This document shows positions 6,295 to 10,362 of a stretch of 33,535 nt of DNA, piece by piece. A model generated the notes under the pieces. The model searched no databases and was not told where the DNA came from. It saw only the letters and a list, made by a program, of their open reading frames with translations. A program made the translations under genes and the position numbers. Origin of the DNA: an uncultured bacterium (lineage in GTDB: Bacteria > Patescibacteriota > Minisyncoccia > Phycocordibacterales > CAIZLB01); contig CAINHC010000028.1 in NCBI GenBank assembly GCA_903848795.1, positions 1 to 33,535 on the forward strand. Direction: 5' to 3'. Each line of letters begins with the position of its first letter. Position 1 is the stretch's first letter.

Positions 6295-9200
6295 CTATTT
6301 TTTCCCAACAAACTCCTCGTAATCATCAACTGCCAGACTCAATTCTTTTGGGTCAATTTTAATCATTCCTAATACATTAACTATTGTCTGCTTGTATTTT
6401 TTTGGATTATATTTTGCAGCAGCAATAATTCCAAGCAAAATATCTTTTGCAACTGCTCTATCGTACTGCCAAATATAATTTAATGGACCAATCAATCTAT
6501 CATTTTCTCTAAGCTTTCTTTCTGGATCCCTGCAGATTCTGTCTACAGTATCAGCCATAAATTTATTTTTATATTTTTTAATACACCATTCGATATATGA
6601 TTCTATGGTTTTATGCTCCGTCTCGCTGTAATCCCATCTGCTATAAAGCGCATAGCCAATAGACTTCATCGCACTTTTAACCTTTTCCTCAATTCTCTTA
6701 TCGGAAATAGCATCGGGAATAGTTTTATATCTAAGTGCATGACCAAGATAACCAGTTAATGAATGAGCCATATTATGAACCCAAAGTTTTCTCATGTGAA
6801 TTGCCACAAAATTATTCTCAAATTTTATTTTATCACTCAGCTCAGGAAAGCCAACTCCTTTTCTTTTCTTCCACTTAGTTTCATCAACATAAAGAGGTGG
6901 AATATATTCCTCAACCTTTATTGGATCACTACTATCAACCTTAATTTCTGAAATAATTGCTTCATTAATTGAAGGTACCAACCCAACAAATTCGTCAAAA
7001 TAACTCTTAATATCTGGGTTATCAATTTTTCTATATATTTCATATCTTAATGATTCAAGTGTTTTATCATATACTTGGAAATTTTCATCGAAGACAAAAT
7101 TTATAGCATCCTGAATATCATAGGCGTATCTTCTCAAAACAATAAATAAAATAGTATCGATCAGCTGACTAATATTACTGAGTCTTACTGCAACAAAAAC
7201 AGTATCAACATTCAGCGCTGTTGTTGATATTTTATCTATATCCAGACTTGATATTATGCCTTTAATTGGAATAACAATTCTACTACCCTTACCAGAAGAC
7301 AAGATCACATCTTTTTTGTCTTGAAAAAATAATATCTTGTTATTATCACTTTCTACAAAAATCATTGACCTCTTGGAAGCTGATAATATCTGCCCAAGAT
7401 ATGCCAAACCAATTGCGCCCATACCAAAAATCATTACATCTTGTTTCTTTTTTTGAATTCTATTTGAATAAACACTCAATTCAGAATTAATTATTTTTGC
7501 TAATTTTTCATTTGTATATTCTTCTGGAAGCTCCCCGTTATTGATGTTTTTTATATCTTTTATTAATAAATTTACAAAATGTCTATTAGCGTCATTCATC
7601 TCCCATTCTTTGTTTATATTTATTTTTAAAGCAGATACATCAAAATTATTTACAGCTGACAAATATTTCTGATAACTACTGTCCATTCTGGCTATTGCCC
7701 CACCCCTATGACCCAAAGTAGCAAACTGATAGTGGGTAGTTTTGATGAGCCAAGCAAGTAAGACAGAAATCGCATCACCGATTGCGAGATTTAGAAATGA
7801 TGAGAATAGCTTTTGGTCAGGAATAGGAACAAGCTTTTCATCGTCCATTTCTGAATCAGCAATTATATAATAAGGAAATACCTCTTTAGCAAGAGTGGAA
7901 TTCTCATTTCCAGTAATCAAAGCAATGTCTATACCCTTACTTTTTGCTAAATCGCAAATATATTTTAGATGACTTGTCTCTCCACTAAATGAAATAATTA
8001 TAAGCAAATCACCTTCTACAATATGAGCAAAATCACCATGCGGAAGTTGAGCCGGATTAACTGCTGTTGCGTCTATTCCAATGCTTGTTAATGTGGCAGC
8101 CATTTTTTCAGCCACTCTGAGCGATGAACCTGAACCGGTAATGAACACAGTTCTTTTGTTGTAGTACGAAATAAGAATCTTTTTTAATATAGGTATAACC
8201 TGCCCATGAAAAGATTCCTTATTTAGATTACTAATATTTTTTGATAATCTTTTGAAAATATCGCCGGCCTTAACATTGATAGAAAAATTGGAATCAATAG
8301 AAGCCCCCTCAAACTTTATCTTTTTATCGTAAATAAGATTTGGATGATCTAAATAAAATTGATCCTTATTGTAATCAAAATAATGACATACCAATACACC
8401 AATAGCCGTTCCAACAGCAAGTGCCGCTGTGGTAGTTGTTGTTGGAGCTTCAGGTAGACGAACAATTTCATCGGTAACATCCTTTACCTTACTACAAATT
8501 AAATAGTCACAACCAAGCGCAAGTCTTGAATTTAAGTCTCCAGTTATGGCAACAGAACAGCATCCCTTTCTTCTAATATAATCAATCAAATTAAGTAGCT
8601 CCCAGGACTTACCACTATTTGAAAGCATAAAAATTAAATCCCCTTCTTTCAAATTTGTTAAGTTCTCAGAGTTTGCCCCAGTGAGCTCGAGGCACGCACT
8701 ATGTATACCCAAATTTCTATATCTTTCAGAAAGATTATAGGCAATGGAATGAGACTTTCCTATTCCTACAAAAAACACACTACCTCCAATTTTTTTTGTT
8801 CTAACTACTTTTGACACCACCTCTCCATAGTGACTTTTTTTAATATTATCAACCAATGTTCCACTAATCTCATCGGAATATGTTTCTAGAATCTTTTTTA
8901 GATTATCGATTATCTCCTCCTTGTTTGAATCTACAGCCTGCTCTGCTTTTGAAGATACAACTTCTTTTTCTAAAATTTTATTTATAATTATTGTATCGAG
9001 TGGAGAATTTATATTTTTTACATCTCTTAAAAATGACATTAGAGAGTCCTCTGGAATATTTGCCAAACCAGTATACGGAATGAATGCCAGTGATTTGTTA
9101 TTCTGCACATTATTATACTCAACAAAATGCATGTACTTTCTAAAAAATTTTCCTGAAATCAAATCTCCGTATTTATAATCAATATCGGAAGGTAATCTAA

Positions 9201-10362
9201 GGAGCTTGGCATATCTTGAAAATCCCTCTAGGCTATAATCTATTTTTTCCCAATCATCAATAGCTCTTATTTTATATGCATCACGAAAGTTACCAATTTC
9301 ATAGCTTCCATCCTTATTTATTATAGCGTGACCAGACCCTAAACCAGTACCGATACCTAAATACATAACATTTGTTTGTTCCTCCTCACACATTTTTTTC
9401 CACAAAACTGGATTATTTATTTTTATCTCCATCAAGGCTCCGTTAAACTGAGCAATACCATCGTTACAAACATACACATCCATACCATGTCCCACATTTT
9501 TCAAAATATTTTGGCAAATAGATGATGGATTACAATTTAAAAAAACACCTTCCGAAGTTCCAAGATCGTCACCTCCATCTTCAACAATTCCTTTTGGTTT
9601 AGTAATACGACCAGGTTGCCCGATAGACAGCATTGGTAATATACAATATACACCATTTTCAAAATTATCTAATATCGGTCTGATGTATAATACTAATTGT
9701 TGATAAAACTCCTCCGGCGTATCACACTTTCTTGTGGGGAAAGAATAGTTTTGTAATATTTTATTATTAGGCTGACCGTCTTGACCTAGGCATGTCAATA
9801 TAAAACTAATTTTTGTTCCACCAATATCAACCATCGCCAAAATTGGTATTTTATTTTCTTTATAAATCTCTTTTGATTCATTATATATTTTTTCCTTAGC
9901 CCCCTTAGTGAAAGCATGAAATGTACCAAGCGCTCCCGCTATAGCAGAATTTAAATCTGTGCTAAGTATTTCTGGTACACCCAAATTACCTTTTGCAAGT
10001 TTTTTGATTTGATTCTGCGCCAAGATAGGTAACAAAACTTTTGTGTACCCATTTGTTCCTATCGATCCTCCTAATATAAAATATTTTGTTTTTTTATGCT
10101 GTTTTATGTCCTTGTCTGAACATCCTTCTATTTTAAAATTTCCTTTATGTATTCTCCAAATTAGATTTCCAAGACCCACACCAACAATTTCTACAAGTTT
10201 TTTGGCGGTTTTCTTCGACTCAAATACGCAATCCCTGTTAGTGGCTATTCCGCCCCCTCTGTCATTAACAACTTCCTTAGAATTTGTATTGACTTTCATA
10301 TTTAGTAATTTAGCATGAAAGTACTTTTTTTGCCATGTTTTATCAGTCATGCTTATTTCCAT
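6295..10362 (-). CDS. Multidomain protein: permuted ROK-like kinase, SIS, SIS, mannitol-1-phosphate dehydrogenase-like
   Basis: ROK C-terminal-type motifs first (FILGGSIGTNG...LLPIL; LNSAIAGALGTF), then DIGGTK, CNDGIAQFNGAL and GIGTGLGSG. Two SIS domains follow (SNSGKS/EAPTTTTTAALAVG; GSGSSLRVAEKM/LPHGDF/SFSGETS). C-terminus has FGMGAIGLAYLG, KLWVHNMAH and DTVDRICRDPERKLRENDRLIGP. Confidence 0.88.
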   Translation of the reverse strand: MEISMTDKTWQKKYFHAKLLNMKVNTNSKEVVNDRGGGIATNRDCVFESKKTAKKLVEIVGVGLGNLIWRIHKGNFKIEGCSDKDIKQHKKTKYFILGGSIGTNGYTKVLLPILAQNQIKKLAKGNLGVPEILSTDLNSAIAGALGTFHAFTKGAKEKIYNESKEIYKENKIPILAMVDIGGTKISFILTCLGQDGQPNNKILQNYSFPTRKCDTPEEFYQQLVLYIRPILDNFENGVYCILPMLSIGQPGRITKPKGIVEDGGDDLGTSEGVFLNCNPSSICQNILKNVGHGMDVYVCNDGIAQFNGALMEIKINNPVLWKKMCEEEQTNVMYLGIGTGLGSGHAIINKDGSYEIGNFRDAYKIRAIDDWEKIDYSLEGFSRYAKLLRLPSDIDYKYGDLISGKFFRKYMHFVEYNNVQNNKSLAFIPYTGLANIPEDSLMSFLRDVKNINSPLDTIIINKILEKEVVSSKAEQAVDSNKEEIIDNLKKILETYSDEISGTLVDNIKKSHYGEVVSKVVRTKKIGGSVFFVGIGKSHSIAYNLSERYRNLGIHSACLELTGANSENLTNLKEGDLIFMLSNSGKSWELLNLIDYIRRKGCCSVAITGDLNSRLALGCDYLICSKVKDVTDEIVRLPEAPTTTTTAALAVGTAIGVLVCHYFDYNKDQFYLDHPNLIYDKKIKFEGASIDSNFSINVKAGDIFKRLSKNISNLNKESFHGQVIPILKKILISYYNKRTVFITGSGSSLRVAEKMAATLTSIGIDATAVNPAQLPHGDFAHIVEGDLLIIISFSGETSHLKYICDLAKSKGIDIALITGNENSTLAKEVFPYYIIADSEMDDEKLVPIPDQKLFSSFLNLAIGDAISVLLAWLIKTTHYQFATLGHRGGAIARMDSSYQKYLSAVNNFDVSALKININKEWEMNDANRHFVNLLIKDIKNINNGELPEEYTNEKLAKIINSELSVYSNRIQKKKQDVMIFGMGAIGLAYLGQILSASKRSMIFVESDNNKILFFQDKKDVILSSGKGSRIVIPIKGIISSLDIDKISTTALNVDTVFVAVRLSNISQLIDTILFIVLRRYAYDIQDAINFVFDENFQVYDKTLESLRYEIYRKIDNPDIKSYFDEFVGLVPSINEAIISEIKVDSSDPIKVEEYIPPLYVDETKWKKRKGVGFPELSDKIKFENNFVAIHMRKLWVHNMAHSLTGYLGHALRYKTIPDAISDKRIEEKVKSAMKSIGYALYSRWDYSETEHKTIESYIEWCIKKYKNKFMADTVDRICRDPERKLRENDRLIGPLNYIWQYDRAVAKDILLGIIAAAKYNPKKYKQTIVNVLGMIKIDPKELSLAVDDYEEFVGKK

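Follow-up and report, generated by a model that had tools for sequence, protein, structure and literature searches.

The analysed window is the whole stretch of 33,535 nucleotides of contig CAINHC010000028.1 from an uncultured bacterium of the Patescibacteriota. It contains a gene for a 1355-residue fusion protein, and inspection of this protein suggested that residues 1 to ~385 are probably a circularly permuted sugar kinase of the ROK type, standing at the head of a fusion of kinase, isomerase and polyol-phosphate dehydrogenase. Behind it, Pfam and NCBIfam recognised two SIS domains, both of the KpsF/KdsD kind, followed by a mannitol-1-phosphate dehydrogenase. The kinase was overlooked by standard annotation, because profile searches presuppose a linear order of segments. 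The layout of the gene is as follows.

6295..10362 (-): whole fusion gene, 1355 residues, a single intact open reading frame with an ATG start
10219..10362 (-): N-terminal tail without assigned homology, residues 1-48
9913..10218 (-): late (C-terminal-type) ROK/ASKHA segment, placed first, residues 49-150 (about 49-148)
within the late segment: helix TAKKLVEIVGVGLGNLIW, residues 52-69
10057-10077 (-): ILGGSIG adenosine motif of the late segment, residues 96-102
9925-9939 (-): AGALG of the late segment, residues 142-146
9844..9912 (-): linker from the native C-end to the native N-end, residues 151-173 (~25 residues)
9208..9843 (-): early (N-terminal-type) ROK segment, residues 174-385
9814-9828 (-): DIGGT phosphate-1 motif of the early segment, residues 179-183
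9457-9468 (-): CNDG of the early segment, residues 299-302 (N300-D301)
9331-9357 (-): GIGTGLGSG phosphate-2 motif of the early segment, residues 336-344
within the early segment: EIGN, residues 355-358
9217-9234 (-): SLEGFS of the early segment, residues 377-382
8863..9207 (-): unassigned linker from the kinase module to SIS1, residues 386-500
8293..8862 (-): SIS1, sugar-phosphate isomerase domain of the KpsF/KdsD type, residues 501-690
7648..8292 (-): SIS2, second domain of the KpsF/KdsD type, residues 691-905
6358..7452 (-): mannitol-1-phosphate 5-dehydrogenase-like part (Mannitol_dh and Mannitol_dh_C), residues 971-1335

Order of the kinase segments

Canonical ROK proteins (n = 63) were used for comparison, comprising 30 from the same phylum, E. 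coli NagK, NanK and the ROK part of Mlc, and others from diverse genomes and viral contigs. A hidden Markov model built from the 30 same-phylum sequences matched the protein in swapped order, with profile positions 239-293 on residues 92-147 and positions 10-146 on residues 174-345. The alignment of all 63 sequences was then rotated in 15-column steps, and a HMMER profile was built from each rotation. The best domain obtained with the canonical profile scored 18.9 bits. All rotations starting at columns ~90 to ~240 gave one continuous domain covering residues 92-260 at about 30.8 bits. When the whole module was shuffled (n = 500), the best score was about 5 bits; when only residues 1-173 were shuffled and residues 174-490 were kept (n = 1000), the mean was 19.5 bits and the maximum 26.4 bits, and none reached 30.8 bits. 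Replacement of residues 1-173 by natural 173-residue pieces yielded a score above 30.8 bits in 2 of 3804 cases (for domains including the DIGGT segment). Both pieces were TsaD C-termini, which are in effect positive controls, TsaD itself being an ASKHA protein.

Profile-profile comparison by hhalign gave a similar picture. The rotated profile aligned over 233 columns with residues 52-347 (score 88.1, E-value 1.4e-12), the canonical profile over 142 columns with a score of 71.9, and in the alignment with the rotated profile the helix VGVGLGNLIW agreed with the ROK helix. On residues 40-173, a profile restricted to the late ROK segment scored 14.7 bits, compared with maxima of 8.0 bits over 1000 shuffles and 10.7 bits over 4572 natural decoy pieces. 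The C-terminal fragments of two ROK proteins, supplied alone, were put by MAFFT at the N-terminus of the module; the program misplaced late ROK halves once early halves joined the alignment.

Pfam PF00480 showed no match on the full-length protein and reached 18.3 bits (E = 0.0019) on the isolated early segment, the gathering cut-off being 22.9 bits. Searches of PDB sequences with the whole module or either segment gave no match. The bacterial glucokinase family PF02685 had a best domain of 7.4 bits, rotated or not, so that ROK fitted better. No early ROK segment was found in any frame upstream of the fusion gene.

A preliminary description of this DNA had claimed that a late-type segment precedes DIGGT, CNDG and GIGTGLGSG, and all the motifs it quoted were located in the single frame at 6295-10362 (-). 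The permuted order that it read from them was borne out by the rotated ROK profile, which scored 12 bits above the canonical one, a score matched by 0 of 1000 shuffles of residues 1-173. It had also stated that the stretch up to the SIS domain holds no second late ROK segment; the late-segment profile gave -0.8 bits on residues 346-530, and no normal C-terminal ROK segment was detected there. At the level of sequence comparison, the swapped order of the segments is thus real and statistically sound.

Motifs and expected geometry of the kinase module

The DxGGT, ND and GTG motifs were kept in the early segment as D179IGGT, N300-D301 and G338TG, and LGGS was kept at residues 97-100 of the late segment. 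For NagK, an essential role of D6 and D105 and an important one of E154 are described (PMC10031466). The HC3 zinc motif GHx9-11CxCGx2G(C/H)xE is characteristic of all ROK members (PMC2742894). By eye, E379 in SLEG aligned with the trailing glutamate of this motif. The preliminary description had found no CxCGxxGC after GIGTGLGSG, and this motif was indeed absent, because residues 345-480 lack any cysteine. A ROK-type gene on a viral-collection contig (L404:84-1034; IMGVR_UViG_2837287094_000001) was likewise observed to be without the zinc motif and to carry EIGN as the fusion does.

In the kinase of GNE, the last helix belongs to the N-lobe (PMC2742894), and the small domain of NagK consists of residues 1-104 and 291-303 (PMC10031466). 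Because the ROK C-terminal helix sits in the N-lobe, a join of the native C-end to the native N-end through ~25 residues is sterically plausible. The join of the native ends should accordingly be within the small lobe and the new ends in the large one, with ~100 linker residues then leading to SIS1. Circular permutation of a ROK kinase, as proposed in the preliminary description, was retained as the best-supported reading of the segment order. Its further suggestion, that the ends at the hinge are thereby brought beside the isomerase domains, was not supported in that form, since in ROK structures the native C-terminal helix is already part of the small N-lobe (PMC2742894, PMC10031466).

A Foldseek search with the better of the AlphaFold2 models (mean predicted local distance difference test, pLDDT, of 43; see below) retrieved entries of ROK proteins and hexokinases; in that model, however, only the early lobe was scored better, and the input had included ROK rows, so that these matches are not independent evidence. 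Because the confidence of AlphaFold2 was low, the fold of the permuted module is a proposed one.

Alternative explanations

Several observations weigh against a permuted kinase. The zinc motif is missing from the kinase module, and at the ROK ExGH position, where E355 of EIGN was placed by eye, the histidine is replaced by asparagine. The mean pLDDT of the AlphaFold2 models was 34 with the single sequence and 43 with four rows, including three ROK N-half rows; none of these low-pLDDT models showed the late segment packed on the early segment. No homologue of the full-length fusion was found in 148 relatives or in 397 genomes of the order, nor any relative of the permuted N-terminal module in 380 phylum genomes, viral contigs, plasmids and phages, and the permuted arrangement is known from one sequence only. 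The late segment is divergent on its own, and its residues 89-167 scored 18.8 bits on a narrow profile built from nine TsaD sequences, five of which belong to this genome or genus.

It was the score on the narrow TsaD profile, together with a tsaD gene nearby on the contig, that raised the idea of a chimera, in which the first segment came from another ASKHA protein (e.g. a TsaD-like C-terminal domain) and was put before an early ROK half, so that the two halves had never been one domain, although their order would be permuted in this case too. GGxxxxNxYxK and LSTDxNSA in the late segment have a TsaD-like look, and the two TsaD pieces were the sole decoys above the rotated-profile score. Nevertheless, a broad TsaD C-terminal profile gave 3.7-4.3 bits on residues 40-173, under the shuffle maximum of 7.0 bits, where the broad ROK profile gave 14.7 bits. 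Genuine ROK C-segments themselves reached 18.7 bits on the narrow TsaD profile, the TsaD match left out the helix VGVGLGNLIW, which fits the ROK helix, and BLASTP of the late segment against the TsaD proteins of the genus found no real match. ROK was kept as the source of the late segment because the broad ROK profile outscored the broad TsaD profile, ROK C-segments cross-scored and the helix was ROK-like. A TsaD-like chimera is therefore less likely than circular permutation, and we consider it unlikely.

An explanation that we find about equally doubtful is that the module consists of the decayed remnants of two tandem ROK genes, the late half of the first and the early half of the second, which would form no working kinase and would serve a structural or regulatory role, as in kinase-inactive ROK repressors. 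Such decay would fit the missing zinc motif, the absence of the histidine of ExGH, the reading NDG where NDA is usual and the weak overall Pfam ROK score. However, the two segments jointly cover nearly one complete ROK domain, and cover it once; the ATP motifs DIGGT, GTG and LGGS and the catalytic ND are kept in an intact reading frame; and the ROK-type gene of L404 is likewise without the zinc motif and has EIGN.

It is improbable that the late-type segment is not of the ASKHA kind at all, and that residues 174-385 alone are kinase-derived and are completed otherwise or truncated. Pfam and PDB sequence searches with residues 45-155 alone were empty and the AlphaFold2 structure was of low confidence, yet the scores of the late segment and of the rotated profile were above chance in both shuffle and decoy controls. 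An assembly or binning artefact uniting unrelated pieces, which a single draft genome and the deviating G+C content of the gene might suggest, is most improbable, given one intact frame of 1355 codons and flanks collinear with those of genus-mates whose slot is empty or differently filled.

Isomerase and dehydrogenase domains

In SIS1, K536, E588, E632 and H673 aligned with all four active-site residues of E. coli KdsD, which we take to be numbered K59, E111, E152 and H193, the residue types having been confirmed. In SIS2, three of the four aligned active-site positions were lost (S746, H798 and K843) and H885 was kept. By alignment, SIS1 appears to be the catalytic domain and SIS2 a degenerate partner. 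SIS enzymes often work as dimers, and SIS2 may thus be a structural partner of SIS1. As an asymmetric tandem, SIS1 and SIS2 (7648-8862) could act as a pseudo-dimer with a single active site.

The dehydrogenase part retained the GMGAIG Rossmann loop and the catalytic K-L-W-V-H-N-M-A-H motif (K...N..H). PF08125 matched above its cut-off with 74.1 bits, and PF01232 scored 24.3 bits, slightly below the cut-off of 27.

Genomic setting and distribution

The contig belongs to a 1.02-Mb genome, 98.8% complete, whose small size is typical of Patescibacteria. The fusion gene occupies a variable slot (5825-11160), which extends from a tRNA-Ser/tRNA-Glu pair to tsaD and is bordered by the following features.

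5825-5912: tRNA-Ser, beside tRNA-Glu
6081..6153 (+): tRNA-Glu, downstream edge of the variable slot, outside the fusion
11199..12638 (+): tsaD, conserved gene bordering the slot opposite the tRNAs, outside the fusion

Both flanks were collinear with those of genus-mates, and the same slot held one small gene only in G003 and different genes of 490-1785 residues in G005 and G002. Because the flanks are collinear and the contents of the slot differ among genus-mates, the fusion gene was regarded as an accessory insertion. Its G+C content was about 33%, compared with about 40% around it, and it was probably gained horizontally. An ISL3-family transposase gene at 17330-18526 is a further sign of mobility on the contig. 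A gene for 208 residues at 10411-11037, which adjoins the fusion, had no Pfam match; a short DNA similarity to it was observed at the corresponding place in genus-mate L495 (a 214-residue frame).

Wider searches were also made. In the genome-wide collection, single-sequence peptide queries found no homologue, and there was no ROK among the matches listed for the GIGTGLGSG pattern; viral contigs yielded nothing beyond chance matches to a DNA pattern for the permuted order. PF08125 was found in no other of the 379 phylum genomes sampled, and a standalone MtlD-like frame was present in one order-mate. No canonical ROK, PGI or PFK was detectable in the host genome. A permuted ROK kinase was not described anywhere in the literature searched.

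Weak 'C-terminal only' PF00480 matches in other genomes were considered as possible permuted ROK proteins and were, where examined, TsaD genes. The C-termini of TsaD (tsaD at 11199-12638; L046, L048) were observed to cross-match ROK C-terminal profiles and can mimic such matches. A frame of 1422 residues with a weak ROK match is presumably, from its length, an acyl-CoA dehydratase activase.

Proposed function and comparison with known systems

Under circular permutation, the native C-terminal piece (residues ~49-148), the linker of ~25 residues and the native N-terminal piece (residues ~174-385) would reconstitute a single ASKHA kinase of two lobes. Such a permutation might have arisen from a tandem duplicated gene that lost its outer halves, the usual route, of which no intermediate was seen. 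The kinase would convert an aldose and ATP to an aldose phosphate, the SIS domains would isomerise this to a ketose phosphate, and the dehydrogenase would reduce the ketose phosphate with NAD(P)H to a polyol phosphate. The order of the domains from N- to C-terminus is that of these steps. The route, which is possibly reversed, might for example lead from glucose to mannitol-1-phosphate; alternatively, as KdsD-type SIS domains would suggest, it might lead from a pentose to a pentitol phosphate. The activity of the fusion, its direction and its substrate are conjectural.

The chances are, in our view, about even that a naturally permuted ROK/ASKHA kinase heads a single-chain enzyme which takes a free aldose through three consecutive reactions to a polyol phosphate, and this in a very small genome without any detected canonical ROK, PGI or PFK. 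If this is true, a two-lobed kinase with domain closure can have its chain ends moved into the large lobe without loss of the ROK/hexokinase fold, and the influence of chain connectivity on closure and dimerisation could be studied in a natural protein. For an organism without detected upper-glycolysis enzymes, the self-contained three-step enzyme would moreover be a compact metabolic addition. Profile searches assume a linear order, and further permuted members may therefore be overlooked.

Compared with the ROK sugar kinases (PF00480; E. coli NagK and NanK, and the kinase domain of human GNE), the fusion has the same segments and the DIGGT, ND, GTG, LGGS and AGxxG motifs, but it differs in the permuted segment order, the lack of the zinc motif and the attached SIS and dehydrogenase domains. 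With the arabinose-5-phosphate isomerases KdsD, KpsF and GutQ it has the SIS fold in common, and SIS1 retains residues aligned with the active-site residues of E. coli KdsD; in contrast to them, it carries two tandem SIS domains in one chain, SIS2 is mostly without active-site residues, and no CBS pair was found in it. Both domains of MtlD (PF01232 and PF08125) are present, with 97 of 365 aligned residues identical to E. coli MtlD and the K...N..H motif kept, although here they form the C-terminal domain of a 1355-residue protein and score far under the NCBIfam equivalog cut-offs. The bifunctional transcriptional regulator/glucokinase (NCBIfam PRK14101) combines a hexokinase-type glucokinase with SIS, and only its SIS part matches the fusion; we take it to consist of a PF02685-type kinase in canonical order joined to a regulator of the HTH-SIS (helix-turn-helix and SIS) type.

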